Shown: piece by piece, positions 228 to 51,511 of the stretch
Layout of the letters: each line of letters opens with the position of its first letter
Numbering within the stretch: the first letter of the stretch is position 1
NCBI GenBank assembly: GCA_004297165.1
Contig: SCUJ01000006.1
Coordinates: 1,240,464 to 1,304,463 of the forward strand
From: Gammaproteobacteria bacterium
Lineage (GTDB): Bacteria; Pseudomonadota; Gammaproteobacteria; Eutrophobiales; Eutrophobiaceae
Direction of reading: 5' to 3'
Length of the DNA stretch: 64,000 nucleotides
Position numbers and translations under genes: made by a program
The notes under the pieces: model-generated
Database searches by the model: none
What the model was told of the DNA's origin: nothing
Seen by the model: only the letters and a program-made list of their open reading frames with translations

Positions 228-340
228 TCGCCGCCGTCCCGGTGTCGATCGATTCCGGTCATGCTATGCTGGCGCGGCTTGCGTAGCAGGGATTCCACGC
301 CCACAAATAATTACAACGTACCAAAATGGGGAGACACCAC

Positions 341-2074
<1,734 letters not shown>

Positions 2075-2077
2075 CGT

Positions 2078-4210
2078 ATGTTGTTGAACCGCGGCCTCGG
2101 CTCCCGGACTGTTACACTGCTGGCAATTTTGACCGGCGCCACCGGATGGGCCGGGCATGCCGCGGCCCAGGGAATCATCCCCTCCCCTGCCTTCACCGCC
2201 GAGCAACTCCACGCCTTGCCTACCGATGGCTGGGTCACCAACGGCGGCAATCTCTACAACCAGCGTTACTCCCCGCTCGCCGCCATCAACCGCGACAACA
2301 TCAAACAGGTCAAGGCCGTGTGGCGCACGCATCTGAATGGATCGGGGATGGGGCCGCAGAACTCCGGCCAGGGGCAGATGCTGTATTACGCCGGTACGCT
2401 ATACGCGGTCACCGGGGCCGACGATGTCTTCGCCGTGGAGGTCGGGACCGGAAAGATCCTCTGGAGTCATGAGGCGAAACTGAATCCCGACAACGTGCTG
2501 GTCTGCTGTGGCTGGGTGAGCCGGGGACTCGGCATGGGCGATGGCCGCATATATCTCGGCCGGCTGGACGGCAAACTGGAGGCGCTCGATCAGCGCACCG
2601 GCGCCGTGGTCTGGTCCATCCAGGCCGAGGACCCGCACCAGGGTTTCAGCATCACCGCAGCGCCGCTGTATTACGAAGGCAAGGTCATCATCGGCTTCGC
2701 GGGCGGGGACATGGGGATCCGCGGCCGTCTCAAGGCCTATGACGCGAAGACCGGGGCATTGCTCTGGACCTTCCACACGATCCCTGGCCCCGGCGAATTC
2801 GGTCATGACACCTGGCCGCAGGACAACGATGCCTGGAAATACGGCGGTGCCTCCATCTGGCAGACGCCGGCCATCGACACCGAACTCGGTCTCATCTATT
2901 TTTCCACCGGCAATCCGGCCCCGGATTTCAATGGCGCGACCCGCGCCGGCGACAACCTCTTTACCTCATCCATGATGGCGCTGGATGTGAATACCGGAAA
3001 CTACCGCTGGCATTTCCAGCAGGTGCACCACGACATCTGGGATTATGATGCCCCCAGCCCCGTGGTCCTGTTCGATGCCAGGTACAAGGGCAAGGTCCGC
3101 AAGGCCATCGCCGAGATCCCGAAGACCGGGTGGGTCTACATCCTGGATCGCGAGACCGGCAAACCCCTGCTCCCGATCGAGGAACGCCCCGTCCTCCAGG
3201 AACCCCGGCAGAAGACCTCAGCCACGCAGCCGTATGTGATCGGCGATGCCGTGGTCCCCCAGGAGATCGATATCGCCCCCGAAGGCGTCGACCTGGTGAA
3301 CGGGGGCAGGATCTTCACCCCGTTCTGGGATGTGCCGACCATCTATAAACCCCAGATGGCCGTCAACTGGCCGCCCACCTCCTACGATCCACAGACCAAC
3401 CGCCTGTTCATTTGCGCGATGGACCATGTCGGCAACTCCGCCTCCGATCAAAAAGAGGAATTCGAAATGCCCGGTTTCCAGGGCATGTGGCTCGGCGCCG
3501 GGGCCGCGGCCCAGCACGGGATCGCGAGACGGGGCGTCTTCGCGGCCATGGAAATGAACACCAATCGGCTGATCTGGCGCCGCCAATGGAGCGACAGTTG
3601 CGTCAGCGGCTCCATCAACACCGGCGGCGGACTGGTCTTCACCGGCCGGAATGACGGACGCCTGATCGCCCTGGACAAGAACGACGGCCGGCTGCTGTGG
3701 GAATTCCGCACCGATGCCGGGGTGAATGCGCCGGTCACCACCTTCGAATACGAGGGGGAACAATATATCGCCGCCTTCTCGGCCGGCACCATGTTCTTCT
3801 CCACGGGGGCCAAGGGCGACAGCGTCTGGCTGTTCTCACTGAATGGAACAATGGAACAACTGCCGCCACCGGCCCCAACCGGGGCGCTTCCCCCACCTCC
3901 GCGTTCAAAGACCGAGACCGCGGCAGAGGCTGTAGCACGCAAAAAACCTGAGGCGTCGCCTGCCAGTCTGACCGCGGACACGGCGCGGGGCAGCGAGATC
4001 TATTTCAGTACCTGCATGCCCTGTCACGGCGACGCCGGTCAGGGCGGACCGGGCGGCGGGATGCCGTTCACCGACGCGCTGACCGTCGACAGCATCGCCG
4101 CCATCCTCAGGACCGGACGCAACAACATGCCGGAGTTTGGCAGCGTGTACACCGTCGAGGATATCGACAGCATCGCGCATTTCGTCGTGGAAAAACTGAT
4201 CCGAAAATGA
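2078..4210 (+). CDS. Quinohaemoprotein: PQQ dehydrogenase with C-terminal cytochrome c (quinoprotein 2)
   Basis: A 710-residue precursor. A signal peptide (about residues 1-28, ending HAAAQ) is followed by a PQQ propeller (about 35-590), a Pro-rich linker (about 598-635) and a class I cytochrome c domain with CMPCH (C646, C649, H650). The vicinal disulfide pair of PQQ alcohol dehydrogenases is present (C143-C144 in VLVCCGW). The segment HHDIWDYDAPSP carries D322 and D324. The architecture is that of type II quinohaemoprotein alcohol dehydrogenases, which pass electrons from PQQ to their own haem and then to a periplasmic acceptor. It lies 3 nt after quinoprotein 1 and its TGA overlaps the dacB start (ATGA), implying one transcript. 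Specificity cannot be assigned. Confidence 0.88.
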   Translation: MLLNRGLGSRTVTLLAILTGATGWAGHAAAQGIIPSPAFTAEQLHALPTDGWVTNGGNLYNQRYSPLAAINRDNIKQVKAVWRTHLNGSGMGPQNSGQGQMLYYAGTLYAVTGADDVFAVEVGTGKILWSHEAKLNPDNVLVCCGWVSRGLGMGDGRIYLGRLDGKLEALDQRTGAVVWSIQAEDPHQGFSITAAPLYYEGKVIIGFAGGDMGIRGRLKAYDAKTGALLWTFHTIPGPGEFGHDTWPQDNDAWKYGGASIWQTPAIDTELGLIYFSTGNPAPDFNGATRAGDNLFTSSMMALDVNTGNYRWHFQQVHHDIWDYDAPSPVVLFDARYKGKVRKAIAEIPKTGWVYILDRETGKPLLPIEERPVLQEPRQKTSATQPYVIGDAVVPQEIDIAPEGVDLVNGGRIFTPFWDVPTIYKPQMAVNWPPTSYDPQTNRLFICAMDHVGNSASDQKEEFEMPGFQGMWLGAGAAAQHGIARRGVFAAMEMNTNRLIWRRQWSDSCVSGSINTGGGLVFTGRNDGRLIALDKNDGRLLWEFRTDAGVNAPVTTFEYEGEQYIAAFSAGTMFFSTGAKGDSVWLFSLNGTMEQLPPPAPTGALPPPPRSKTETAAEAVARKKPEASPASLTADTARGSEIYFSTCMPCHGDAGQGGPGGGMPFTDALTVDSIAAILRTGRNNMPEFGSVYTVEDIDSIAHFVVEKLIRK

Positions 4211-6909: not shown

Positions 6910-8790
6910 TTATTTATCCGGAACCAGTCGCGTGGTCAGTTTCGTTCCCGCGCCCCCCTGGCTGGCCTTGGTCAGGGTCGCGCTGTGCACGAGCTTGGAG
7001 ATGTGCGCCACCGGCTTGTACACGCCATCGAGGAAGTAGGTCATCGTCAGGGTGTAGCCGGGGATGCCGCCCGCGACCATGAATTGCACGTCATCGGGAC
7101 GCGAGAGCATCGGGACCTTGCCGCCCGGTTTGAGCCCTGCCTTGAAGCGCTCCGCGAACTCCGCCGGGATATAACCGCTATCGATGGCGCGTTGCACGGC
7201 CTCGACTTCATTGGGCTTCAACTCCTCGAAGGGCACGCTGGAGGCCTCGAAGATATGCTCCTTGAGCTTTTCGCGCGTATAGCCCAGGCGGCTGTTCAGC
7301 TCTTGCGCAATCTCGGGATTGAAGATCACGAAGAACTTGCGGTAGTTGCTGCGCACGGCCTTCTCGTTGCCGGTCGCCCCGCCTGCGGCGATTCCGGTGC
7401 GGACGCTGCTGATGTCGCGAACTATGCTCTGCAGGACCGCCTCCGGCGGGACCAGCGCGACCGCGCCGCCGCCGTAGACATTGGTCCCGGTGCGGCCATA
7501 GCCACCCGTCACCGTGAGTGTGACGGTGCTGTCCTCGGGCGCGAAGCCGGCCGCTTCATGATAGGAGGTCCACGGGCTCTGGGCCTGATTTTCGGCGAAG
7601 GTCAGGAAGGCATGCGCCCCCGGACGGCCGACCAGCGCCATGTCGTTTTGCGCCGGCCAGGTATGGCCCATGTTGATCATCGCCAGCCGCACCGCGCGGC
7701 CGATGGTCCCGTTCGCGCGCGAGCCGTAACTGAAGAGGCCGAGCCCGGAGTTCATGCCGATCTCATCCGCGATCGGTCCACTGACGCCGATGACGAGATT
7801 GAAGGACCCGGTCGAGGTCGAGAAATGCAGCTCGTCGAAGTTCGGATCGGCAAGCCCTTCGACCGCCGCGATAATCACGGGCAGGTATTCCGGTTTCGCC
7901 CCGGCCATGACCGCGTTGATCGCGATCTTCTCGATGGTCACGGTCCCGTTGCGAGGCGAGAGTTGGCCGATGACCTCATCCGGCGCCCGGCTGGTGCCCG
8001 AGAGCATCCACTTCACCCGTTCCGGGGTCGGCGGGACGAGCGGCAGGCCGTCCGACCACTGGTTGTCGAGAAACTGCTGATTGAAATCCTCGAGCGCCGC
8101 CTCCGGCGTGTCGCCGGTGAAGGCAATCGTGCCGGTCACGGAAGACCGCTTCTTCGGATTGGATTCCTCTTCGGTGATCGGCTGGGTCAGGGACGCCAGC
8201 ATCTCGTCGATCATCTTCTCCGCCACCGGTCGCGCGCGTTCCTTGCTGATGCGCTCGCGATAATAGAGATCGGCGGGCACGCCGATGATGCGCATCGTCG
8301 GGACGCCGTTATCCTCGGCGGAGAGATGGGCGTTCTGGAAGAACTGCGATGTGGCTAGGTAAACCGCGGGAACCCCTGCTTTTTCCATATTGGCTGCGCC
8401 GGCGCCGCCGGCCCAAGTACAGGACCCTCAATCCCCCACACCATAGAAAATGGTATCGACCTCCTTGGCGATCTCTTGCGCGCGTTTCTCGCCGAGGTCA
8501 AACGGTCCTTCGTAACGCACGGTCTTGGTATTCGGGAATCGCTCGTTGAGCACTTCCTCCACGCCGTCCCAGAAGTTGTCGCCGCCGGCCTTGCCAATCC
8601 AGTAGATCCCCACCGTCTTGCCGGCGAGATCGGTCACTCGCGGGGATGGCGCATGGAACGGCGGCGGCGGGATCTCGCCGCGCGGATTCATCACCTCCAG
8701 CGTCGCCGATTGGGCGAGCGCGGGCGTGCAGACGGCGAGGACAGGCGCCACCGCGAGTCCTAGTAACAGGGATTTGATGTGTTTGTGCAT
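6910..8790 (-). CDS. UGSC-family selenoprotein (UGSC 1), in-frame TGA at 8430-8428
   Basis: Read through a single TGA (codon 121) as selenocysteine, this is a 626-residue exported protein. The start ATG at 8790 has AGAGGAG upstream and a Sec signal ending PALAQS. Sequence around the TGA reads YGVGD-U-GSCTWAGGAG, the exact motif that names the UGSC family, with a UxxC redox-like arrangement. The frame then runs without a stop to 6910. The C-terminal domain (about residues 190-626) shares motifs with the two other copies here: DGLPLV, GTSRAPDEVIG, NAVMAGAKPEY-PVI. Function of the family is not established; a thiol/selenol redox role is plausible from UxxC. It is the last gene of a probable operon with the haem c/propeller protein (8838-10961) and the MDR dehydrogenase (11045-12157). 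A standard gene caller would split it in two at the TGA. Confidence 0.85.
8390..8416 (-). promoter_or_regulatory. Candidate SECIS stem-loop of UGSC 1
   Basis: On the minus strand, 15 nt after the TGA, GCCGGC-GGC-GCCGGC (8412-8398) can form a 6-bp stem with a 3-nt loop. An outer TTGG/CCAA pairing (8416-8413 with 8393-8390) lies around it, with a GCAG bulge. The position within about 50 nt downstream of the Sec codon fits a bacterial SECIS, but the sequence is GC-rich coding DNA and the loop is short, so this needs RNA folding to confirm. Confidence 0.4.
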
Positions 8791-17035: not shown

Positions 17036-17062
17036 CCGCATAAATCATACGGGGAGTTGATA

Positions 17063-18787
17063 ATGCAGCGATACTGGCCATCTGTCCTTCTAGCCTTGTT
17101 AATTCATCCGTTCGCCCAGGCCGATGACTCCCTGCCGGACAGTTTCGTTCCCGTCACCGACGCGATGCTGCGGTCACCCGATCCCGCGGACTGGCTGATG
17201 TACAGCCGCACCTACGACGCCCAGCGTTATAGCCCACTCGATCAGATCAACACCAGTAACGTGAATGGTTTGCAGTTGGCGTGGGGGCGCGGCCTGCCAG
17301 ATGGCGTCACAGAGACGATCCCGCTGGTCTATGCCGGGGTCATGTACGTCGTCGCGCCCGGTTCGCGAGTCCAGGCGCTCGATGCGACGAATGGCGATCT
17401 GATCTGGGAATACGCCCGCGAACCCGCCGACCCCACCGCCCGGACCAAGAGCCTCGCGATCTACGCGGATCTTTTGATCTACACCGCTCCGGACAGTCAT
17501 ATCGTGGCGCTCGATGCCCGCACCGGCGCGGTCCGCTGGGAGACGAAGACCGGAGAGCGCGGCCACACCTCGGGCCCCCTCGTCATCGAGGGCAAGGTGA
17601 TCTCGGGCGGGACCTGCGGCGGGAGTCGCGACAACTGCTACATCTCGGCGCACCACGCCCGCACCGGGAAAGAGGCTTGGCGCTTCTACACCACCCCGGC
17701 CCCCGGCGAGCCGGGCGACGAATCCTGGGACGGCGCGGCGCTCGACAAGCGGCAGGCATCCACCTGGGGCCTGCCCGGCAGTTACGACCCGGAACACCAT
17801 CTGATCTACTGGGGTATCGCCAATCCGATGCCGGACCTGCGCATCGACCGGCACGACGGCGATTCCGGCCCCAAACGCCTGACGGCCCCGTCCGATCTCT
17901 ACAGCAACTCGACCGTGGCCCTGAATCCGGACTCCGGCAAGCTCGTCTGGTATTACCAGCATCTGCCGGGCGATGACGCCGATCTGGATCACACCCACGA
18001 ACGGACCCTCGTACGAACCGCGATCGCCCCCGATCCCCGCTTCGTCAAGTGGATCAACCCGAAGATCAAACCGGGCGAGGTCCGCGAGGTCTCCGTCACG
18101 CTCCCGGAAGGCGGCGGCCTCTTCGTGAACGATAGAATCACCGGGGAATTCCTCTGGGCAACGCCCTTCCCCTTCGAGACTCCCCAGATGTTGCTCAAGG
18201 ATATCGACGTCAAGACCGGCCGGACCAAGATCAACTACGACCTGGTCATGAAGACAAAAGGCGCGCCGCGTGTCGTCTGCTACTGGAACACCCGCAGCTA
18301 CTGGCCCACGGCCTACAGCCCGGACACGAATTCCCTCTATACCTCCTACATCGACAACTGCCGCGAGATGACCGGCCAGACCGGCCGCGGCGCCTGGCGG
18401 GTGATCCCGAGACCGGGATCCGATCCCAAGGCCCTGACCGGGATCGCGAAGATCGATCTCGCGACCGGCGAGATCCTGCGCTTCGACACCGGCCGGGCTC
18501 CGGGCAACGGGGCGCTGCTCGCGACCGCCGGCAAGCTCGTCTTTCACGGCGACATGAGCCGACGCTTCCGCGCCTTCGACGCCACCACAGGCGAACGCCT
18601 CTGGGAGACGGTGCTGGGCGGCAATGTCTCCGTGAGCACCATCGCCTACGCGGTGAACGGCCGGCAGTATGTGGCCGTGATGACCGGGGACAACCTCAAG
18701 GTGCCTGAATTGCTGGGCGTGGTCCCGGAGCTGAAGCTCCCTGCCGGCCACAACGAGATCTATGTCTTTGCCCTGCCGCAGAGGTAA
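17063..18787 (+). CDS. PQQ-dependent dehydrogenase (quinoprotein 3), exported
   Basis: A 574-residue quinoprotein clearly paralogous to quinoprotein 1 (shared SRTYDAQRYSPLDQI, WGRGLP, GLPGSYDPE, DLYSNSTVAL). ATG 17063 has GGGGAG 6 nt upstream and a Sec signal ending HPFAQAD. As in quinoprotein 1 the vicinal Cys pair is replaced by Cys residues six apart (CGGSRDNC), and there is no haem site. The catalytic segment is DDADLD (D307, D309): the D-x-D pattern associated with lanthanide-dependent enzymes is kept, but the Trp before the catalytic Asp is Ala. The exported SDR gene starts 37 nt downstream and is probably cotranscribed, hinting at two successive periplasmic oxidation or reduction steps on one substrate. 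Confidence 0.88.
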   Translation: MQRYWPSVLLALLIHPFAQADDSLPDSFVPVTDAMLRSPDPADWLMYSRTYDAQRYSPLDQINTSNVNGLQLAWGRGLPDGVTETIPLVYAGVMYVVAPGSRVQALDATNGDLIWEYAREPADPTARTKSLAIYADLLIYTAPDSHIVALDARTGAVRWETKTGERGHTSGPLVIEGKVISGGTCGGSRDNCYISAHHARTGKEAWRFYTTPAPGEPGDESWDGAALDKRQASTWGLPGSYDPEHHLIYWGIANPMPDLRIDRHDGDSGPKRLTAPSDLYSNSTVALNPDSGKLVWYYQHLPGDDADLDHTHERTLVRTAIAPDPRFVKWINPKIKPGEVREVSVTLPEGGGLFVNDRITGEFLWATPFPFETPQMLLKDIDVKTGRTKINYDLVMKTKGAPRVVCYWNTRSYWPTAYSPDTNSLYTSYIDNCREMTGQTGRGAWRVIPRPGSDPKALTGIAKIDLATGEILRFDTGRAPGNGALLATAGKLVFHGDMSRRFRAFDATTGERLWETVLGGNVSVSTIAYAVNGRQYVAVMTGDNLKVPELLGVVPELKLPAGHNEIYVFALPQR

Positions 18788-20989: not shown

Positions 20990-22624
20990 ATGAAACAACC
21001 GTACCGATGGCTTCATGCATTAATCCTGGCATCCCTGATGTGCGCCGGCCTGCCGCTGGCGGCCGCCGATCAGGAGATGCTGACCACGCTCAGCCCGCTC
21101 GGGAATCCCCCGGGGATTGAGCTCATCCCGCTGGCCAAGCGGCTCGACAACCTCGATGGCAAGACGATCTATTTCGTCGACGACGGCTTCCTCGGCGGCG
21201 ATGTGCTGCTGAACGAGATGATCAAATGGTTCGCCGAGAATCAACCGAACGTCAAGACCGAGTTCCGCAAGAAGGGCGGCATGGGCTTCGCCGCCGAGGA
21301 CCCGCAGCTCTGGGCCGAGATCAAAGAGAAAGGCAATGCCGTGGTGATGGCCACCGGGCATTGAAGCACCTGCACGCCGGCGGTCGTCGGCCACTGCATC
21401 AACCTGGAAAAAGAAGGCATCCCCGCGGTGCCCATCGTCACCAGCTCCTTCATCACCCTGGCGAAGACCAACGCCGCCAGCCACGGCATGCCCACGCAGC
21501 GGGTGACCTTCGTCCCGCATCCTGTCTGGGGCAAGAGCGCCGAACAATTGCATGAGGTCATCCGGGGGAATGACCCGGATTCAGGCAAGCCGATCATGCC
21601 GCAGATCGTCGCCGCCCTGACCACCCCGCTCAATGCCGAAGAACAGAAGACCGGCACCGTCACCCCGTCGACCGGCCCGGCCGAGATCGGCCCGGACACC
21701 GCGGAGAATCTGCAACAGTATTACCAGGACAGCGGCATGACGGATTACCTCCCCATCGTCCTGCCCACCGCGGAGAAGGTGGCGGCGATGCTTAAGGGCA
21801 CCAGCCACAAACCGGATGAGATTGTCGGGAAGATGTCCCCGGCCATGGGCGCCTATGAACCCTGGTCCTACACCGTGCGACAGGTGGCGGTGAATGCCGT
21901 CATGGCGGGCGCACGACCGGAATATTTCCCGGTCATCCTGGCGCTGGCCGCCTCGGGCGCGACCTCGATCTCGAGTTCCACCAATTCCTTCGCGCGCATG
22001 GCCGTCATCAACGGTCCGATCGCCGATGAGATTAAAATGAATTACGGGATCGGCGCCATGGGTCCCTTCAGCCATGCCAATACAACCATTGGCCGGGCCT
22101 GGACCCTGCTCTCGAAGAACCTCGGCAACTCCGGGATCCCCGGCGTGACCTACATGGGCACGCTCGGCAACCCGACGACGCTGATGAACATCGTCATCGT
22201 CGAGAACCCGAAGGACAACCCGTGGCCGGCCTACCACACCGAAAAGGGCTTCAAGGCCGAAGACAGCGTGGTCAGCCTGTTCATGGGCTACGGCATCGTC
22301 TCCGGACAGGGGATGACCGCCGGGGCCACCTCGAATGACCCGCATTTCGACACCGAGTTGAAGAACGTCTTCGCCACCCTTGGCCCCATGTTCGGCGGCT
22401 TTGTCGTGATGGATCCGACCGTGGCCAAGAACCTGGTCGATCACGGCTACGCCGACAAGCAGAAGCTGCTGGACTTCCTCTTCCAGGCCCCTGGCGAGGA
22501 ACGGCCGCATTTCCGCAACAAGACGGACATCAGCATCGTCGTCACCGGCGGCCAGACCAACCTGTATTACCATGCCGGCGGGATGCGTTACGGCAATTCC
22601 GTCTCCATCGACGCCTGGCGTTAA
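20990..22624 (+). CDS. UGSC-type selenoprotein, U-S-T-C variant (UGSC 2), in-frame TGA at 21362-21364
   Basis: With TGA at codon 125 read as selenocysteine, a 544-residue exported protein results. The ATG at 20990 has GGAGGAGG upstream and a Sec signal ending PLAAADQ. The N-domain contains LDGKTIYFVDDGFLGGD and runs to MATGH-U-STCTPAVVGH; the frame continues unbroken to TAA at 22622. The C-domain repeats the family motifs GTSHKPDEIVGKM and NAVMAGARPEYFPVIL and ends GGQTNLYYHAGG. It is close to UGSC 3 and more distant from UGSC 1, in which the motif is U-G-S-C. A ferredoxin and a fumarate-reductase/AprA-like flavoprotein follow on the same strand, suggesting a redox pathway. No molecular function is known to me. 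Conventional annotation would report a 124-residue ORF and a separate C-terminal ORF. Confidence 0.85.
21371..21398 (+). promoter_or_regulatory. Candidate SECIS stem-loop of UGSC 2
   Basis: Eleven nt after the TGA, GCCG (21376-21379), loop GCGGTCGT and CGGC (21388-21391) form a short upper stem with a GGU in the loop. An outer TGCA/TGCA pairing (21371-21374 with 21395-21398) extends it. The 16-nt core is identical in UGSC 3, including every wobble base. A small stem-loop about 11 nt after UGA is the arrangement known for bacterial SECIS elements such as that of E. coli fdhF. Confidence 0.5.
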
Positions 22625-39457: not shown

Positions 39458-41404
39458 TTACGGCAGGGCGAACACCTTCACCTCGTTCCGGGCAGCGATC
39501 GCGACATACTGTTTGCCATTGGCGCCCATGTAGGTCATGGGATTGGCGCTCGCTACCTGGCCAAGGTCCGTGGCCCAAAGCTCGTTGCCGTTCGCCGCAT
39601 CGAAGGCGCGAAGGCGGCGATCGTTGGTGGAGCCGATGAATACCAGACCGCCTGCGGTGACCGACGGACCCGCGCTGCCGCTGCCGCCGACCTTCTGCTT
39701 GCCTTCCGGCAGGGCTTCATTGAGGCCAAGCACGGTCTCCCAGGCGATCTCGCCGGTCTTCGCATTGACCGCGACCAGCCGCGCCCAGGGTGGTCTCTGG
39801 CAAGGCCACATACCGATCACATTGCCGTCCTTGTCCTTGACCTGGGCATTGAAACCCGCGTACGGTCCAGGTCCGGAGATGCTGGCCCGGTCATAGGTCT
39901 GGGTCGCCCCTTCGGTCCCACGCCCGTAGTTGAGGCCGGGTTTCTTCTTTTCGACCCAGCCAACCAGTGAGGTCTCCGTTGCGTTCAGGATCACGAGGTC
40001 CTGCGACGGGTCATAGGCCGGCCCGCCCCAATTCACGCCGCCGCCGCCGCCAGGGAACTGCACGGTGCTCTTCGGCGGATCGCCCTCTTCATGGAAACCG
40101 AAGGGCGTGTAGGGTCCCTCATTATTAAAACCTCCGCTATCGTCCCAGAGCTTCTGACAGGCGGCGGCATGTTCGGGCGTGGTGTCTTCCGCCGTGACCA
40201 TGTCCTCCTTCTTGAAGCTCACCCTGGACATGGGCGGCGTCTTCACCGGGAACGGCTGGGTCGGGGAGTACCATTCGCCGGGGACGTTCCCTTGCGGCAC
40301 CGGGCGTTCCTCGACGGGATGGATGGGTTCGCCGGTCACGCGGTTCAGGAAGAACAGATAGCTGGTCTTGTTGAGGACGGCGAGGGCCGGGATCGTCTGA
40401 CCATCCATTTCCACATCGAAGAGGACCGGCGGCGAGGGCATGTCCTCGTCCCACAGGGCATGGTGCGCCAACTGGAAATGCCAGAGGTATTTGCCGGTTT
40501 CCGCCTCGACCGCGACCACGGAATTGCCGAACAGGTTGTTGCCGGGCCGGTCACCGCCCCAGTAATTGGGCGAGGGTCCGGAGATCGGCATGTAAAGGAT
40601 GCCGCGTTCTTCATCCACGGTCATGCTGAAGGCCCAGACGTTGGTGCCCGAGCGTCCCTTCCAGCTCTCGCCTTCCCACGTCTCGTGACCGACCTCGCCG
40701 GGCTGCGGGACATTATGGAACTCCCACACTTTCTCGCCGGTGCGGGCATCGAAGGCGCGGGTGTTGCCAGGCTCGCCAAAGGAGAGTTCCCCGGTGTTGG
40801 CGCCGATTATGACCAGATGTTTGTAGATGGTGGGCACACCGAGATACGGGGTGCCGACCTCGGTCTCGCCATTCGTGCCGAAACCCGCCGCGGGCTCGCC
40901 CGTGGCGGCATCGAGGGCAAGCATCCTGGGACCGATCATCACGAAGATGCGCGCCGGGTGATCCGCATCGCCGGGCCAGTAGGCGACGCCGCGCCCCGAC
41001 GGACGGCTCTGATCGCCCAGATCATGATTCCAGACGACTGCGCCGGTGTCCGCGGTCACGGCCGCCACCCCGTTGGAGGTCGGCAGATACATCACATTCG
41101 CGATCACGATCGGGGTAGCCTGCCCGCCCGAGGGATGGCTCCAGACCTGCTGGAGTTGCGCGACGTTGCTCCGGTTGATCTGATCGAGCGGCGAGTAACG
41201 CATCCCGTTCAGACGCCGGTTATAGTTCTGCCATTCGCCAGGCGCGGGATCGGCAATGACCTTGGCCGCTGGCGGGGTCGCTGCGGGCGGCGCTTCAGCC
41301 TGCGGTGCGGCGGCCGGTTGCGCCGCACCCTGATCGGGACCTTGCGAACCACAGGCGCCGAGCAGGGCCGTAAGGATTAATGTTGCGAGAATGCGTGAAT
41401 TCAT
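39458..41404 (-). CDS. PQQ-binding lipoprotein dehydrogenase, glucose-dehydrogenase-like (quinoprotein 4)
   Basis: A 648-residue precursor with a lipoprotein signal (lipobox LLGAC, Cys18) and a Pro/Ala-rich linker (about 20-50), so it is tethered to a membrane. The propeller contains QNYNRRLNGMRYSPLDQI, RGVAYWPGD, AHHALWDEDMPSPPVLFD and SAGPSVTAGGLVFIGSTNDR. The WDEDMPSPPVLFD and RGVAYWPG segments are closer to membrane-type glucose/polyol quinoprotein dehydrogenases (Gcd-like) than to methanol dehydrogenase. It has no haem domain and no membrane anchor other than the lipid. GGGGGA precedes the ATG. It is downstream of the exported aldo/keto reductase on the same strand, though a 66-bp gap separates them. 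Confidence 0.85.
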   Translation of the reverse strand: MNSRILATLILTALLGACGSQGPDQGAAQPAAAPQAEAPPAATPPAAKVIADPAPGEWQNYNRRLNGMRYSPLDQINRSNVAQLQQVWSHPSGGQATPIVIANVMYLPTSNGVAAVTADTGAVVWNHDLGDQSRPSGRGVAYWPGDADHPARIFVMIGPRMLALDAATGEPAAGFGTNGETEVGTPYLGVPTIYKHLVIIGANTGELSFGEPGNTRAFDARTGEKVWEFHNVPQPGEVGHETWEGESWKGRSGTNVWAFSMTVDEERGILYMPISGPSPNYWGGDRPGNNLFGNSVVAVEAETGKYLWHFQLAHHALWDEDMPSPPVLFDVEMDGQTIPALAVLNKTSYLFFLNRVTGEPIHPVEERPVPQGNVPGEWYSPTQPFPVKTPPMSRVSFKKEDMVTAEDTTPEHAAACQKLWDDSGGFNNEGPYTPFGFHEEGDPPKSTVQFPGGGGGVNWGGPAYDPSQDLVILNATETSLVGWVEKKKPGLNYGRGTEGATQTYDRASISGPGPYAGFNAQVKDKDGNVIGMWPCQRPPWARLVAVNAKTGEIAWETVLGLNEALPEGKQKVGGSGSAGPSVTAGGLVFIGSTNDRRLRAFDAANGNELWATDLGQVASANPMTYMGANGKQYVAIAARNEVKVFALP

Positions 41405-41470: not shown

Positions 41471-42385
41471 TCAAACGCTGTCGATGAAATCCTCCATCCG
41501 CTTGCGCATCGCGGCATCCGGCAGCCGGCCCATGGCCGCGCCGAGATTATCCTCGGCATGCTGGGGTTTGCGGGTCCCCGGGATCGCGACCGTCACGGCG
41601 GGATGGGAGACGATGTATTTCAGGAAAAACTGGCCCCAGCTTTTACAGTCGAATTCGGCGGCCCACTCCGGCAGGGGTCGCTGCCCGACATTCCCGAACA
41701 GGCTGCCGCGCCCGAGCGGCACATTGATGAATACACCGAGACCCTTATCCGCGGCAAGCGGCAGGATTTTTTCCGCCGCCGCGCGATCCCCCAGGGAATA
41801 ATTCACCTGAATGAAATCCAGTTCCTGCTCCTGCATCAATTTCGCCAGTAGTTCATGCTGTTGCGTCTGGGAAGTGGTCACGCCGTAATAACGCAGACGG
41901 CCGGCCGCCTTCCATTCGCGCATGGCCGGCAACTGGCCATCCCAGCCCATCAGGTTATGGACCTGCATGAGATCGATGACATCCCATTTCAGGCGGGCGA
42001 CCGATTCCTCCATCTGTGTCGCGCTTTGCTCCTGCGTTTGCATGTTGCACTTGGTGGCCATGAACAGGTCGTCCCGGATGCCGAGCCCGTCGATCAGATC
42101 GCCCAGTACGGCCTCCGAATTGCGGTAGGCCGGGGCCGTGTCGATCACCGTGCCGCCCAGTTCCCGGAATTTCTTCAGGGTCTCGCGCAACGGCGCAAGC
42201 TGTTCCTCCACGGCGTCCACGCCATAGCGGTTGGTGCCGATGCCGATGACCGGTATCAGCTCACCCGTCTTCGGGATGGGTTTTTTAATCAATTCCGTCT
42301 GCGCGCGTAGCGGCGGGATACCCAGCATCCCCGCCGCCGTCAATGCCGCCGAGCCCTTGAGTACCTGCCGCCTGGTCAAACTCAT
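41471..42385 (-). CDS. Tat-exported aldo/keto reductase
   Basis: A 304-residue AKR. ATG 42385 has GAGAGGG 8 nt upstream and starts a twin-arginine signal, SLTRRQVLKGSAALTAAGMLG; upstream in-frame codons to 42610 encode nothing plausible. The AKR tetrad is visible: Asp and Tyr in DTAPAYRNSEAVLG, Lys in MATKCNM, His in MQVHNLMGWD. The C-terminal NADPH-binding part is VAIPGTRKPQHAEDN. Tat signals let a protein be exported with its nucleotide bound, as in glucose-fructose oxidoreductase, so a periplasmic reductase with tightly bound cofactor is possible. It diverges from the dienelactone hydrolase gene. Confidence 0.87.
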   Translation of the reverse strand: MSLTRRQVLKGSAALTAAGMLGIPPLRAQTELIKKPIPKTGELIPVIGIGTNRYGVDAVEEQLAPLRETLKKFRELGGTVIDTAPAYRNSEAVLGDLIDGLGIRDDLFMATKCNMQTQEQSATQMEESVARLKWDVIDLMQVHNLMGWDGQLPAMREWKAAGRLRYYGVTTSQTQQHELLAKLMQEQELDFIQVNYSLGDRAAAEKILPLAADKGLGVFINVPLGRGSLFGNVGQRPLPEWAAEFDCKSWGQFFLKYIVSHPAVTVAIPGTRKPQHAEDNLGAAMGRLPDAAMRKRMEDFIDSV

Positions 42386-42536
42386 GAGAAAGACCCTCTC
42401 CTGCTCATCACTATGGGTTTCAGAATCGTATCCGGATGCGGATCCGCCTTGCCGTTCATGCGGACCGCCAATATGATGCCTAGTTATAATCCAGTTGCTC
42501 ACACAAGTACATATCGACGGCGGGAGGATCGACATC
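42386..42536. promoter_or_regulatory. Divergent promoter region (AKR / dienelactone hydrolase-UGSC 3)
   Basis: A 151-bp gap between divergent starts. The right side contains TAGTTATAAT (TATAAT at 42485-42490), a good -10 candidate for the rightward operon leading to UGSC 3. No operator palindrome is obvious. Confidence 0.4.
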
Positions 42537-43274
42537 ATGAAACTTTTTTCCACAATTGCGTTGCTGTTATGCGGTGTGTCCGGCGTGCTGACCGCGGGCG
42601 AGAAGGTCAATTACGACGTCGGAGGCGAGGCCTTCGAGGGTTATTATGCGAGCCCCACGGCGAACGCCCCGCTGGTGCTCCTGGTGCACGACTGGGACGG
42701 CCTGACCGATTACGAGGTGAAGCGCGCGGAGATGCTGGCGGAGCTGGGTTATTCGGTCTTCGCGGTGGACATGTTCGGGGCCGGCAACCGGCCGGCGGAC
42801 ATGGCCGGCAGACAGAAACTGACAGGCGCCTTGTACAACGATCGTCCACGGATGCGGGCCTTGATGGCCGGCGCCCTGGAGGCCGCTAAACAGCAGGGCG
42901 CAAACACGGGCAATGCCGTCGCCATGGGTTATTGCTTCGGCGGATCGGTGATCCTCGACTACGCGCGCTCAGGCGCGGACCTCAAGGGCTTCGTCACTTT
43001 TCACGGGGGACTCGCTACACCCGAGGGACAGAACTATGCGCAGGCCAAGGGACAGATCCTGGTGCTGCACGGCACTGCCGACGACGCGGTGACCATGGAT
43101 CAGTTCGCCGCGCTCGCCAAGGAACTCGAAGGCCAAAAGATCAAACACGAGATGATCGCCTACAGCGGCGCGCCGCACGCCTTCACGGTCTTCGGTTCAG
43201 AGCGTTACCGGGAAGATGCTGACAAAAAATCGTGGCGGCGTTTCGGGGAATTCCTGGAAGAAGTGCTGAACTGA
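42537..43274 (+). CDS. Dienelactone hydrolase family protein, exported
   Basis: A 245-residue alpha/beta hydrolase of the DLH family. It has an unusual N-terminal signal (MKLFSTIALLLCGVSGVLTAGE). The catalytic triad is seen as Cys in MGYCFGGS, Asp in HGTADDAV and His in GAPHAFTV. Members hydrolyse dienelactones or other small esters and lactones; intradiol and haloaromatic pathways use cytosolic versions, so export is notable. ATG 42537 has GGGAGG upstream. UGSC 3 starts 37 nt downstream, suggesting an operon. Confidence 0.88.
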   Translation: MKLFSTIALLLCGVSGVLTAGEKVNYDVGGEAFEGYYASPTANAPLVLLVHDWDGLTDYEVKRAEMLAELGYSVFAVDMFGAGNRPADMAGRQKLTGALYNDRPRMRALMAGALEAAKQQGANTGNAVAMGYCFGGSVILDYARSGADLKGFVTFHGGLATPEGQNYAQAKGQILVLHGTADDAVTMDQFAALAKELEGQKIKHEMIAYSGAPHAFTVFGSERYREDADKKSWRRFGEFLEEVLN

Positions 43275-43311
43275 GCAACGGACATTATCGACAACCATGA
43301 GGAGAAACACG

Positions 43312-45036
43312 ATGCGAATCCAATCAGGTCTGACGGCGGCGCTGGCTGTATTGATGCTGTTGCTCGGCGCGAACGCCGACGCGGCCAGCGAGAAACTCAC
43401 CGTCCTCAATCCGCTGGGTCAGCCCCCGGCTATCGCGCGGATCCCCATGGCCCCCCGGCTCGATACGCTGGATGGCAAGACCATCTATCTCGTGGACATC
43501 GGTTTCACCGACACCCATCAGCTTTTCACGGAGATGCAGGATTTATTGAAGTCCCGCTACCCGAAGACCGCCTTCGAGGTGCGCAAGAAGGCCGGCGTCT
43601 ATTACGAGGATGACCCGGAGCTATGGGCGGAGATCAAGGCGAAGGGCGATGCCATGATCATCGGTGTGGGCCATTGAAGCACCTGTTCGCCGGCGGTCGT
43701 CGGCCATGGCATCACCCTGGAGAAGATGGGCATCCCGATCGTTGGCGTGGTGACCACCGCGTTCAGCAATCTGGTCATAAGCTATTCCGGCAAGCAGGGC
43801 ATGCCCGGTGAACGCTTCGCCTTCGTGCCCCATCCCATCACCGGCGTCCCGGCGGCAAAATGCCGGGCATATCTGGAAGGCCAGGACCCCGTCACAGGCA
43901 AACCCGTGCTTGATGAACTCGTCTCTAGTCTGACCGGGAAGTTGACCGCGGAGGAGACCGCCACCGGCTTCATCGAGCGGCCCATTCCCCGCGTGGTCGA
44001 GGTTCAGGACACCGAGGAAAACCTGACTCAATTATTCCACAACAACGGCTGGACCGACGGCATGCCCATCGTCCTGCCCACGGAGGAAAGGGTTGCGGCG
44101 ATGTTGAAAGGCACCAGCCACGCCCCCGACGAACTCGTGGGAAAGATGCAGGCCTCCGCGCCGCACGAGGCCTGGAGTTACACGGTGGAGAAGGTCGCGG
44201 TGAACGCCGTGATGGCGGGCGCGCGACCCGAACACTTCCCCGTGATCCTCGCCATTGCCTCGACCGGGGCGCCGGCGCTCTTCACCTCCACGACCTCCTT
44301 CGCCCGCATGGCAATCATCAACGGCCCCATCCGCAACCAGATCGGGATCAACTCCGGGATCGGCGCGCTTGGCCCCTTCAGCCAGGCCAACGCGGTGATC
44401 GGCCGGGCCTGGACCATCCTGTCGATGAATCTCTGCGGCGGCGGGCGCATCGGCGAGACCTACATGGGCAGCCAGGGCAACAACTTCAACTACAACAACC
44501 TCACCTTCGGCGAGAACGAGGAGCAGTTGCCGGAAGGCTGGAAACCTCTGCACGTCCAGAAGGGCTATGAGCCGGGCGACAGCGTGGTCAGCGTCTTCAA
44601 CGGCTGGGGCATCACCCACGCCGACCAGAGTTTTGGCAAGGACTTTCATCCCCAGATCCCGCGCTGGTTGCAGTTCATCAGCCCGTGGTCCCCCGCCATC
44701 CTGCTGCTCGATCCTTCCATCATCAAGCAGTTGAAGGACTCGGAGGGTTTCGCCAGCAAGGAGCAACTCATCGACTGGATCTACAGCAACACCAAGGTCA
44801 AGGCCGGCGATTACTGGGAGAATTACTACTCGGTGCAAAACTTCACCCGTCCGAGCGCTGAGAAGGGCGTGGAACCCTACGCCTCCTGGCTCAAGCTGCC
44901 CAAGGACGCCGAGATCCCGCAGTTCTCCCGGCCGGAGCGCATCACCGTGATCTCCGTCGGCGGCGAGACCAATCTCTTCTGGCAGGCCGGGGATTTCGGT
45001 TACCTGTCCTCCGCTTCCGTTGACGACTGGAGATAA
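43312..45036 (+). CDS. UGSC-type selenoprotein, U-S-T-C variant (UGSC 3), in-frame TGA at 43675-43677
   Basis: With TGA at codon 122 read as selenocysteine this is a 574-residue exported protein. ATG 43312 is chosen over 43297 because GAGGAG lies 7 nt upstream; the Sec signal ends GANADAAS. The N-domain shows NPLGQPPAIARIPMAPRLD and LDGKTIYLVDIGFTDTH, then IIGVGH-U-STCSPAVVGHG. The frame then runs open to TAA at 45034. C-domain motifs GTSHAPDELVGKM, NAVMAGARPEHFPVIL and a terminal VGGETNLFWQAGDFG match UGSC 2. It follows the exported dienelactone hydrolase and precedes a small exported protein by 1 nt, so the three are probably cotranscribed. Biochemical role unknown. Split into two ORFs by any pipeline that treats TGA as stop. 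Confidence 0.86.
43689..43704 (+). promoter_or_regulatory. Candidate SECIS stem-loop of UGSC 3
   Basis: Starting 11 nt after the TGA, GCCG-GCGGTCGT-CGGC is identical base for base to the UGSC 2 element (21376-21391). The codons flanking this block differ between the two genes (TGC ACG against TGT TCG before it). Identity at all wobble positions in the loop is consistent with an RNA constraint beyond the protein sequence. Confidence 0.5.
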
Positions 45037-45037
45037 C

Positions 45038-45604
45038 ATGATTCGATCAGGATTTTCCGCCCTTGTCCTGGCGGGTGTACTTTGCGTGCAGAATAGCGCA
45101 ATGGCGCAGAATAACTCGCCGGGTTCCGCCGCGGCCATCGGGGCGACCGTCGCCGGCATCGTCGAATGCGGCCAGGGCTACTCCTCGCACGAATTGTACA
45201 ACGTCAAGGTCAGCGTCCAGGAGGTCCTGCGCGGTCCGGCCGCCAGCGAACGCCTCCAATCCGCCGCCGGTGAAATCCCCGCCCCAGCCGCGGACAATGA
45301 ATATCTCCTCGCCAGCGTGAGTTTCAATTACAAGGCGCGCGGCAAACCCGGCCTCTGCGCGCATCCCCTGCGGCCGGCGCAGTTCAAGGCGATCTCCGCA
45401 GCCGGTGTGGAATATCCGCGCCCTGATTTTCCACCGCCCGATCCCCCATTAACCGGCGACATCAAGTCCGCCGAAACCCTGGACGGCTGGCTGGTTTATC
45501 TCGTTCCGCGCGCCGACTCCTCCCCATTGCTCTATTTCAATGTCGACGAAAACGGCGGCGTCGCCCACGGCGGGAATCTGTGGTTCAAGCTGGGGGCGGA
45601 ATAG
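45038..45604 (+). CDS. Hypothetical exported protein of the UGSC 3 operon
   Basis: A 188-residue protein with a Sec signal (MIRSGFSALVLAGVLCVQNSAMAQ). The mature part is beta-rich (ELYNVKVSVQEVLRGPAASE, NEYLLASVSFNYKARG, DGWLVYLVP) and ends with YFNVDENGGVAHGGNLWF. I do not recognise a named domain; the pattern could be an immunoglobulin-like sandwich. ATG 45038 lies 1 nt after the UGSC 3 stop, so translation is probably coupled and the product may work with the selenoprotein in the periplasm. Confidence 0.75.
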   Translation: MIRSGFSALVLAGVLCVQNSAMAQNNSPGSAAAIGATVAGIVECGQGYSSHELYNVKVSVQEVLRGPAASERLQSAAGEIPAPAADNEYLLASVSFNYKARGKPGLCAHPLRPAQFKAISAAGVEYPRPDFPPPDPPLTGDIKSAETLDGWLVYLVPRADSSPLLYFNVDENGGVAHGGNLWFKLGAE

Positions 45605-45638: not shown

Positions 45639-46847
45639 ATGTCAAACGAGAACTTTTACTCGAACCTGCCCGTCCTCGACGATTTCACCGCCGTCACCGA
45701 CCTGGGCAACTATCAGCCCTTGCCCGAGGACTGGTGGATCGTCGTCGCCGACATAGCCAACTCCACCGGCGCCATCCGTTCCGGGATGTACAAGGCGGTC
45801 AACCTCCTCGGTGTTTCCGTGATCACATCCGTTGTTAATCTCGCCAATCCTTTACTCATTCCCTACATCTTTGGCGGCGATGGTGCGGTGATGTGCGTAC
45901 CGCCCGGCCTGCTCGATAAAACGCGCACGGCGCTACTCGCCACGCAGGCCCTCGCACGCGCAACTTTTGGTCTCGACCTGCGCGCCGGTCTCATACCGAT
46001 AAGCGCGATAAATCGTTCCGGGGCGCGTATCCTGGTTGCCAGGCACCGGATGTCGCGGCATTTCATCCAGACCGCCTTTGCCGGCGGTGGCGTGGAGTAC
46101 GCGGAACGATTGTTGAAGGATGAAACCGCGGGCGCAGAGTATCGTCTGCCCCATGCTGAAGCCAGTTCCGGGGCGGATTTTTCCGGTCTGGAATGCCGCT
46201 GGGACAATGTACCAAGCAAGCACGGTGAGATCATCGCCCTGATCGTCAAGGCCATGGCGCCCACGCTGGATGCAGAGGCGCGGATCTACGATGAGATTAT
46301 CGCAAAGGTGAAGGAGATCTACGGCGACGATGACTCCTGCCGTCCGGTGCATCTCGGCGGCCTGCATCTCACCTTTAACGGCGGGAAATTGAGCCATGAA
46401 ACCTGGATCCGTACCTTTCCGCGCGGACTCTTCGCGCGTCTCCGCTACTGGTACAAGGTGCGATTGCAGAATGTCCTCGGCTGGATCTTCATGGGATGCG
46501 GGTTCAACATCGGCGGCACGGACTGGGTGCAATACAAGCAGGACTTGATCCTGAACACCGACTTCAAAAAATTCGATGGCATGCTGCGTGCGGTGCTGTC
46601 AGGCACAAGGGAACAACGCTGGCGACTTAATCAATATCTCGAAGCGCGTTTCGACCGGAAGGAGTGCGTCTACGGCATCCATCCATCGGATTCGGCCTTG
46701 ATCACCTGTCTCATCAGGAAACGCTCGGGGGAGCATTATCACTTCGTCGACGGCGCCGACGGCGGTTATGCGATGGCGGCCGCGGCCTTGAAAGACCGGC
46801 TGAAGGAACTTAATTCTCCGGAGACACCAAACCCTCCAACCGGGTAG
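45639..46847 (+). CDS. DUF3095 family protein (nucleotide-cyclase-like)
   Basis: A 402-residue cytoplasmic protein of the DUF3095 family: FYSNLPVLDDFTAVTDLGNY, DWWIVVADIANSTGAI, FGGDGAVMCVP near the start, and GGTDWVQYKQDLILNTDFKKFDG further on. The DIANST and FGGDGA segments resemble the metal-binding parts of class III nucleotidyl cyclases, and the family is thought to be related, but activity is not established. No signal peptide. ATG 45639 is preferred over upstream codons inside the previous gene. It is 34 nt after that gene and may be part of the operon. Confidence 0.83.
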   Translation: MSNENFYSNLPVLDDFTAVTDLGNYQPLPEDWWIVVADIANSTGAIRSGMYKAVNLLGVSVITSVVNLANPLLIPYIFGGDGAVMCVPPGLLDKTRTALLATQALARATFGLDLRAGLIPISAINRSGARILVARHRMSRHFIQTAFAGGGVEYAERLLKDETAGAEYRLPHAEASSGADFSGLECRWDNVPSKHGEIIALIVKAMAPTLDAEARIYDEIIAKVKEIYGDDDSCRPVHLGGLHLTFNGGKLSHETWIRTFPRGLFARLRYWYKVRLQNVLGWIFMGCGFNIGGTDWVQYKQDLILNTDFKKFDGMLRAVLSGTREQRWRLNQYLEARFDRKECVYGIHPSDSALITCLIRKRSGEHYHFVDGADGGYAMAAAALKDRLKELNSPETPNPPTG

Positions 46848-50928: not shown

Positions 50929-50973
50929 CGGCGAATAGATCCTGCCTGGACTGGATTGTACCCTGGCAAAAAA

Positions 50974-50995
50974 AAGCCCCGCGATGGCGGGGCTT
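50974..50995 (-). terminator. Rho-independent terminator of the cold-shock gene
   Basis: AAGCCCCGC (50974-50982) pairs with GCGGGGCTT (50987-50995), loop GATG. On the minus strand a run of T residues follows (the A run at 50968-50975), 28 nt after the csp stop. It can also close the convergent small membrane protein gene. Confidence 0.88.
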
Positions 50996-51022
50996 CTTGC
51001 ACAGACTGATGTACTGTCTGGT

Positions 51023-51226
51023 CTAGCGCACAGTCACATTGGTTGCGCTGGGGCCTTTCGCGCCTTGCTCGATGTCAAAGCTCACGGTCTGACCCTCTGA
51101 CAACGATTTGAACCCTTCCGCGCGGATGGCGGAATGATGCACGAATACATCGGGGCTGCCGTTGTCCGGCGTGATGAATCCAAAACCCTTGCTGTCGTTA
51201 AACCACTTTACTTTACCTGTAGCCAT
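51023..51226 (-). CDS. Cold-shock protein (CspA family)
   Basis: A 67-residue single cold-shock domain with both RNA-binding motifs intact: RNP1 as KGFGFITP and RNP2 as VFVHHSAI. It starts [12 protein letters not shown] and ends SATNVTVR. Such proteins bind single-stranded nucleic acid and act as RNA chaperones or antiterminators. AGGTAACC precedes the ATG; the long gap upstream (51227-51511) may carry a structured leader as in other csp genes. Housekeeping gene, not tied to its neighbours. Confidence 0.96.
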
Positions 51227-51511
51227 TACGGTTACCTCATTGATGATTGATAAAAGAACAATGTATTAGCATCTGTATTGTTGACGATGGATCACGGAAA
51301 AGTCTGCTGTTATACACTGCGAGGGATTACCGGAAGTCGCTACAAAAAACATTCATACTTATGCTAATGGTCATCACCCTATAGCATTTTGTTTAGGAAT
51401 ACCAGTTATTTAACATGCCAGGCGCATGCGTTTCTGTCAGGACTGACCCGAGATGATATCATCCGTTGCGGGGGAAGCAGTCCTGTATCCATGTCATCGA
51501 GGGGAAATGTT

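Follow-up and report, generated by a model that had tools for sequence, protein, structure and literature searches.

A UGSC-family fusion gene with a UGA almost certainly read as selenocysteine, one of sixteen one-UGA family members in a gammaproteobacterial genome

We asked how the in-frame TGA of a gene at positions 43312-45036 is read, and what the product of that gene might do. The gene lies on contig SCUJ01000006.1 of a gammaproteobacterium (assembly GCA_004297165.1), in a window of 64,000 nucleotides, by which we mean the whole stretch of DNA that was analysed. Codon 122, a TGA, is the only internal stop in its frame of 574 codons; in the same interval the +1 frame has 17 stops and the +2 frame 8. 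Judged from sequence comparison, this UGA is almost certainly read as selenocysteine (Sec). The argument uses the following features:

43312..45036, plus strand: gene for a predicted 574-aa selenoprotein (Sec122) in which a UGSC domain is fused to a second domain; translation might instead start at 43297, an in-frame ATG
43675..43677, plus strand: UGA very probably read as selenocysteine, codon 122, in a U-S-T-C motif
43402..43869, plus strand: UGSC domain, residues 31-186 (PF24696), modelled as Rossmann-like
43999..45033, plus strand: C-terminal domain, residues 230-574; no Pfam family and no Protein Data Bank (PDB) fold detected
43689..43704, plus strand: candidate hairpin resembling a selenocysteine insertion sequence (SECIS), with a 6-bp stem (GCCGGC/GTCGGC), a GGTC apical loop at 43695-43698 and a 5' arm ending 17 nt after the UGA; comparative evidence
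20990..22624, plus strand: paralogue reading USTC, TGA at codon 125
6910..8790, minus strand: paralogue reading UGSC, TGA at codon 121

The product belongs to the described UGSC family and carries a further conserved domain fused to its UGSC domain. Residues 31-186 match PF24696 with 110.7 bits (gathering cut-off 25) and E 1.1e-31, and all 79 aligned family members match the same model at E 0.01. That alignment comprises 15 copies from the host genome and 64 of the 102 listed sequences; six sequences were removed for extra stops, two TGAs, N, or insufficient length. The C-terminal 344 residues of the product have no Pfam match. Our protein thus shares with the UGSC family the PF24696 match, the Sec/Cys site and the conserved second domain. 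It differs in its USTC motif (the literal U-G-S-C is found in 4 of the 16 host copies), in a score of 81.3 bits against the NCBIfam equivalog NF041046 (UGSC_fam), below the curated cut-off of 125, in its predicted export, and in being one of 16 Sec copies in a single genome. An earlier note on this DNA had called the system not described, which does not hold for the family: UGSC-containing proteins and a 'UGSC/Unknown_1 fusion' have been in print since 2008 (PMC2398784). The C-terminal domain is perhaps this 'Unknown_1'. The UGSC passages of that paper give fused domains a conserved Cys as a rule, unlike the second domain here, where Cys reaches at most about 30% of the 79 rows in any column.

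If the TGA were a true stop, either two proteins would be made or the gene would be decaying. This alternative draws only on the standard code, in which UGA is a stop, and on an ATG at 43726 with which the downstream half could begin. The comparative evidence speaks against it. We re-read the coordinates and found codon 122 homologous to codons 125 and 121 of the other two copies in the window, as the earlier note had stated; its remark that all three read U-S-T-C is right for 43312-45036 and 20990-22624, but 6910-8790 reads UGSC. The note had also argued that chance nonsense mutations at one site are unlikely, and the host genome bears this out, with all 16 family copies having exactly one in-frame TGA, at the same site and in a U-x-x-C motif. 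Among 85 aligned matches (from the best 80 of 466 loci, with 17 matches lacking the Sec column excluded) the codon at this site is TGA in 65, TGC in 16 and another in four, and none has TAA or TAG. The four others are two split copies reading Leu and two opposite-strand matches. In these split copies (L074, 5607-7397, and L079, 6001-7779) Leu occupies the Sec position (IGQLDTCAP), each copy falls into two profile matches, and an opposite-strand match lies close by each; perhaps Sec was lost or the copies were frameshifted.

Both halves of the frame appear to be under selection. Compared with four close relatives, third codon positions differ 1.6-3.7 times as often as second positions on either side of the TGA, with nonsynonymous divergence (dN) of 0.21-0.41 and synonymous divergence (dS) of 0.9-3.1 (one not computable), which indicates purifying selection on the downstream half. 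Full selenium machinery is also encoded in the host genome (3.5 Mb, 98.95% complete): SelA and SelB above their NCBIfam cut-offs, tRNA-Sec, and a SelD with a single in-frame TGA of its own. An ARAGORN call and a 70.8-bit Rfam match place tRNA-Sec at one and the same position; the Rfam model gives a signal in 14 of 14 control genomes and exceeds its cut-off in five. One observation counts against the Sec reading, namely a genome (G001, 76% complete) with Sec-type family copies but no SelA match. Weighing these points, we regard a true stop as extremely improbable.

Several lines of sequence evidence support exchange of Sec for Cys within the family. In the tree, which was built by a quick method with support from the SH-like approximate likelihood ratio test (SH-aLRT) only, 15 of the 16 Cys forms (one was omitted for an extra stop) fall into two fully supported, separate clades, and hence the exchange would have occurred at least twice. 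One clade is of Burkholderiales; the other joins Alphaproteobacteria, Ramlibacter and an unplaced proteobacterium. Cys forms occur in cultivated Variovorax, Neorhizobium, Arthrobacter, Roseovarius and haloarchaea.

Decoding of the UGA by SelB would be directed by the SECIS-like hairpin with its GGUC loop. We take the SECIS of Escherichia coli fdhF to have a GGTC loop as well. Among genes matched for the peptide U/C-S-T-C-A, 29 of 30 with TGA have this loop, versus 1 of 15 with TGC. A GGTC loop with a stem of at least 4 bp occurs in 47 of 88 TGA sequences versus 0 of 16 TGC sequences, and loop-anchored stems are stronger in the former (p 1.3e-6; 7.6e-5 for named loci alone). These p values are optimistic because the sequences compared are related, and the loop-anchored test is not blind, since it was devised after the GGTC loop had been seen. 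Three results run counter to the proposal: the stem at 43689-43704, taken alone, does not beat synonymous shuffles (p 0.19), only about 19% of the 88 TGA sequences have stems that do so at 0.05 (0 of 16 with TGC), and whole-segment minimum free energy (MFE) did not separate the TGA and TGC sets (p 0.15). We discarded MFE as SECIS evidence; individual p values below 0.05 were obtained for 3 of 6 of the host's own segments, 28% of 25 segments from relatives, 4% of 57 named TGA segments and 12% of 16 TGC segments. Repeated 51-nt segments were removed from the folding tests.

How many such genes does the host have, and how did they arise? A search of the host genome with the protein encoded at 43312-45036 gave 17 matches, which are 16 family members and the tail piece of one; 15 members are full and one runs into N. 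Their motifs are USTC and UGSC (4 each), USSC (3), UNGC (2), and USLC, UDGC and UHGC (1 each). The 14 other full copies share 26-53% identity with our product, so its nearest full own paralogue stands at 53%. By contrast with this figure, a genome of the same family has a copy at 72%, and metagenome-assembled genomes (MAGs) labelled Acidobacteria and Deltaproteobacteria have copies at 65-70%. The 15 full copies read as eight places in the tree, separated by sequences of other genomes; set against ten sequences of two related genomes, the host label requires 10 changes (shuffled mean 8.1) and is not clustered. Because the copies are scattered and outside relatives are nearer, they would be old dispersed paralogues or transfers rather than a recent tandem expansion. 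In the tree, a copy of G001 (L034) and one of Gammaproteobacteria bacterium RIFCSPLOWO2_02_FULL_56_15 (L075) are identical, which puts the host within the Gammaproteobacteria. Beyond the host, the UGSC family is present in 2 of 39 relatives and a SelA match in 6 of 39, one of them weak at 24.8 bits. In a phylum-wide draw with at most three candidates scored per genome, 5 of 398 genomes match the family, host included. The named loci are the best 80 of 466 confirmed, and counts on them are not a census.

Two host copies lie within the sel cluster, one between selB and selA and the other about 130 nt from tRNA-Sec. This cluster (host contig C2, L021 2945-13099) comprises a TrxB-like gene, selB, selA, tRNA-Sec, both of these UGSC copies and a gene homologous to that of the 188-aa protein described below. 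Their location recalls a role in selenium or metal handling, in which Sec and Cys would bind or shuttle metal or selenium species and the sel-cluster copies would feed Sec synthesis; in another genome of the phylum (G359), a copy likewise adjoins selB and an open reading frame (ORF) that reads as SelA by eye. However, 14 further host copies are located elsewhere, and Cys forms on plasmids adjoin catabolic genes. We consider this role highly improbable.

We looked for a link between the UGSC domain and the selenoproteins of glycine and D-proline reductases. In profile alignment by hhalign, the domain matched a GrdB-like set (5 of 7 loci, read through their own TGA) with 90.7% probability and E 1.2e-6, with Sec aligned to Sec. 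When Sec and Cys were masked the alignment was unchanged (E 5.6e-4), and six controls, one reversed and five column-shuffled, gave E 0.14-0.61. Weak NCBIfam matches among the 79 members were to GrdF (2), GrdB (1) and PrdB (1), the best at E 0.0015. Besides the Sec-on-Sec alignment, the likeness to GrdB, GrdF and PrdB (PF07355) includes the position of Sec after a hydrophobic stretch, and 3 of the 5 GrdB-like sequences have UxxC, as UGSC proteins do. GrdB relatives, too, are multiplied: several substrate-type copies are reported in some genomes, and multiple substrate-specific B complexes in many bacteria (passages of PMC10838667), to be compared with 16 UGSC copies here. The UGSC passages in the main texts of PMC2398784, PMC13188914 and PMC9312934 do not state a link with GrdB and describe UGSC as Trx-like or unassigned.

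Several observations weigh against kinship with GrdB. Masking lowers the hhalign probability to 29.7%, so the Sec/Cys columns supply part of the score. No PF07355 match was found for the product (Pfam to E 0.1 returned only UGSC), in the host genome, or among the 79 aligned members at E 0.01, and an SDR model is matched by 2 of the 79 about as weakly (0.0035) as the Grd models. GrdE/PrdA (PF09338) has 0 matches in the host genome versus 3 of 3 positive-control genomes, and we rejected a relationship between GrdE/PrdA and the second domain (hhalign E 0.39). For amine substrates, carbonyl activation would therefore have another source or be dispensable. Further differences from GrdB are that the UGSC domain is without the first ~240 GrdB columns and is fused to an unrelated domain, and that 13 of the 16 host copies look exported by hydropathy. 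A scan for GrdA (PF04723) gave 0 matches in the host genome and likewise 0 in the controls.

The predicted structure bears on both the fold and the chemistry. The full-length model is confident, with a predicted local distance difference test (pLDDT) score of 93.0 and a predicted template modelling (pTM) score of 0.90. Its UGSC part has five beta-alpha units in succession, and Sec122 sits between strand 114-120 and helix 125-138. VIA-align placed it with 8s7v_H (Z 10.9, 139 residues, 5.0 Å) and AerR (7te2; Z 10.2, 113 residues, 2.4 Å). We read the modelled domain as Rossmann-like. A thioredoxin fold has the order beta-alpha-beta-alpha-beta-beta-alpha, with UxxC at the start of a helix; thioredoxin-fold selenoproteins have the UxxC motif in common with our protein but differ from its predicted fold. 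No thioredoxin row appeared among the VIA-align matches, which is not evidence of absence. Our model differs from the 'likely Trx-like fold' given to UGSC proteins in the UGSC passages of PMC2398784.

A Rossmann-like domain also brings to mind Asp/Glu racemases and similar enzymes, with hydrolytic or isomerase chemistry in which Sec or Cys would serve in acid-base catalysis and not in redox. Rossmann-like Cys enzymes of that kind exist, and one of the weak Foldseek matches is a hydantoin racemase (rank 31, E 0.014). Such chemistry fits poorly with thioredoxin-system neighbours and with an invariant second Cys in UxxC, and we judge it improbable. The C-terminal domain, modelled alone, is confident as well (94.9 and 0.93), and had no PDB match at E <=0.001 and VIA Z values of at most 5.0. 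Hence a known fold was not detected for this modelled domain in the PDB, which does not prove a new fold. We did not accept the full model as a glycoside hydrolase (best Foldseek E 8e-4, TM 0.17), nor the second domain as fumarate hydratase (E 0.015, TM 0.22) or tubulin-like (Z <=5.0). No usable match came from searching the PDB by sequence.

Several lines of sequence evidence suggest that the UGSC and second domains act as a pair. They are separate neighbouring genes in four other genomes of the phylum (G359, G191, G325 and G187) and in 5 of the 8 plasmid regions examined (8 of the 24 records with a match). The Sec site of the split pairs in these genomes is TGA in G359 and at both G187 loci, and Cys in G191 and G325; the G325 match has a TGA elsewhere within it. 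In G359 and G191 the second domain is extended at its N terminus by a stretch containing CHTC or CETC. These extensions align with each other at E 4e-7, and that of G191 matches a thioredoxin model at 6.9e-4, under the model cut-off.

Similarly supported by several lines of sequence evidence is a link between several non-exported members and thioredoxin-system genes. The order of genes is trxB-trxA-hypothetical (second domain)-UGSC on the Arthrobacter ERGS1:01 plasmid and LysR-hypothetical-UGSC-trxB on that of Roseovarius THAF8, and on the Variovorax SRS16 plasmid two genes separate trxB from the UGSC/second-domain pair. A TrxB-like stretch is present in 5 of the 8 plasmid regions, the weakest being that of V. 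boronicumulans (28% identity). CxxCD is found in 8 of the 8 TrxB-like proteins of the first neighbour cluster (84 of 100 neighbours were taken into the set). Among 97 copies (16 own and 81 named), with export judged by hydropathy alone, a TrxB-like gene lies within 6 kb of 12 of 59 non-exported versus 0 of 38 exported copies (Fisher p 0.003). This association has weaknesses as support for our protein: eight of the 12 linked copies are Cys-type and at least seven are of one clade, the comparison among Sec-type copies alone gives 4 of 43 versus 0 of 38 (p 0.12), and there is no trxB within 6 kb of the three UGSC copies in the window.

The Sec site on the eight plasmid regions is Cys in seven and TGA in Acidovorax T1. 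The latter, a UGSC fusion on the IncP plasmid p2-T1 of Acidovorax sp. T1 (L168, 7001-8461), is annotated only as a 291-nt hypothetical protein. A Cys-type fusion on the Neorhizobium galegae VafX2 plasmid (L172, 6977-8645) lies in two frames, possibly by a frameshift, and is annotated as two overlapping hypothetical proteins. Other plasmid neighbours are TctC or TRAP receptors, CoA-transferases and isocitrate lyase/PEP mutase family proteins, with phosphosulfolactate synthase in two regions and DUF6282 in two. The phosphosulfolactate synthase genes, near UGSC on the Arthrobacter (L173) and haloarchaeal (L175) plasmids, are a possible hint of a C-S substrate.

The UxxC motif, the trxA and trxB neighbours, and the placement of UGSC with Trx-like selenoproteins in the literature (passages of PMC2398784) would also suit a general thiol-disulfide oxidoreductase or peroxidase, which reduces protein disulfides or removes peroxide. 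The model argues otherwise, since its five successive beta-alpha units depart from the order seen in thioredoxin and the solved structures that match it best are Rossmann-like. A conserved second domain of about 340 aa and 16 diverged copies are ill-suited to a housekeeping role, and some neighbours are genes for organic-acid or alcohol catabolism. We regard this function as unlikely.

We propose instead that the product of 43312-45036 is a GrdB-like, thiol-recycled Sec reductase of an organic substrate, a reading that rests on sequence, model and analogy and that we hold to be evenly balanced between right and wrong. In glycine and D-proline reductases, attack by Sec is believed to yield a selenoether, and cleavage of this ether by a thiol to give a selenenyl sulfide (passages of PMC10298544). 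By analogy, the protein would be translated through the UGA with SelB and the GGUC-loop hairpin, and exported. Sec122, at the start of a helix in the Rossmann-like domain, would attack a small organic substrate lodged against the second domain, at a carbon or heteroatom that is electrophilic, as GrdB and PrdB do. Cys125, three residues on in UxxC, would resolve the adduct by forming a selenenyl sulfide, and the Sec enzyme would be regenerated by a dithiol: thioredoxin in the cytoplasm, and some periplasmic donor where the copy is exported, as here. The diverged host copies, 16 in all, would be substrate-specific versions. Export of our product, implied in the earlier note, is borne out by a crude hydropathy test only. 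A parallel, compared by description, is FarB of Cloacibacillus, a GrdB relative proposed to defluorinate monofluoroacetate by attack of Sec on the C-F bond, and hence on a carbon-heteroatom bond as suggested here (passages of PMC10838667). FarB differs in that its host is a rumen bacterium and its product is predicted to pass to GrdA/GrdC (same source).

Do the immediate neighbours belong to this system? Two genes flank ours at the distances given in the earlier note, which are exact: the upstream gene ends 37 nt before it and the next ATG follows 1 nt downstream.

42537..43274, plus strand: dienelactone-hydrolase (DLH)-like protein (PF01738), predicted to be exported; as a UGSC neighbour found at the present locus only
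45038..45604, plus strand: 188-aa protein, predicted to be exported; recurrent neighbour of Sec-type UGSC genes

The note had suggested that the three products form one periplasmic system, and co-occurrence across loci, which we checked, bears this out for at most two of the three genes. In the fetched loci the 188-aa family gave 18 ORF matches (16 distinct ORFs, 15 loci), each no more than 2.2 kb from a UGSC gene and on its strand, in Gammaproteobacteria, Acidobacteriota, Chloroflexota and 'Deltaproteobacteria' MAGs. This closeness is partly built in, because the loci searched were chosen around UGSC genes. The family adjoins 12 of the 97 UGSC copies, all Sec-type (0 of 16 Cys-type), mostly downstream and in some cases upstream; given this share and the varying side, the 188-aa protein would be a partner of a subset rather than of the whole family. 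A search for the DLH-like protein (phmmer, E 1e-5) found none at other loci of the host genome, relatives or the best 80 of 466 named loci. It is not a conserved partner, and we dropped a conserved DLH-UGSC-188-aa system.

Other genes near the UGSC copies are noted here. Four PQQ-type dehydrogenase-like ORFs in the window (326-2074, 2078-4210, 17057-18787 and 39458-41404; one BLAST cluster, with Pfam run on a member from another locus) lie about 5 kb or less from UGSC genes, and Acidobacteriota loci likewise have such genes next to UGSC genes. A PQQ dehydrogenase is near 10 of 38 exported versus 4 of 59 other copies (p 0.015), and those four (L086, L101 twice and L110) have leaders like those of exported Acidobacteriota copies, below the hydropathy cut-off of 1.9. 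We treat PQQ dehydrogenase as a partner of exported copies as a lead only. An ORF at 41471-42610 (minus strand) belongs to an aldo/keto-reductase cluster (Pfam on one member) whose members lie close to UGSC genes at 7 loci, including five of the Cys type. The 188-aa gene is followed at 45639-46847 (plus strand) by a gene for a DUF3095 protein (430 bits), which tblastn did not find at the other host UGSC loci. In several Caldilineaceae loci (L120, 3471-5114, and relatives), the UGSC gene is preceded, at about 50 nt, by a gene of a 547-aa family, which has no Pfam match in the one member scanned. A cspA thermoregulator RNA (Rfam RF01766, E 2e-22) lies at 50968-51372 (minus strand).

New here are 16 one-UGA genes of the family in one genome, two of them within the sel cluster, the Sec-on-Sec alignment with GrdB, and the Rossmann-like model of the UGSC domain. 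UGSC proteins are among the most abundant selenoproteins of the Global Ocean Sampling data, chiefly in non-marine samples (passages of PMC2398784), and a 2026 review counts them among selenoproteins of largely uncharacterised function (passages of PMC13188914). More broadly, and with more doubt than confidence, we suggest that two-domain UGSC proteins may be a large class of thiol-driven, Sec- or Cys-dependent reductases that share an ancestor with GrdB. This class would extend beyond classical fermentative anaerobes, to haloarchaea and, when exported, to the periplasm, with 16 substrate-specific copies here and a second domain of a fold not yet in the PDB. The largest bacterial selenoproteome named in the passages of PMC5029168 and PMC9312934 has 39 genes. 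A genome with sixteen Sec genes from a single family would rely on selenium to an unusual degree, and the proposed GrdB link, the thioredoxin-system neighbours and the Cys forms in cultivated hosts would make UGSC function directly testable.

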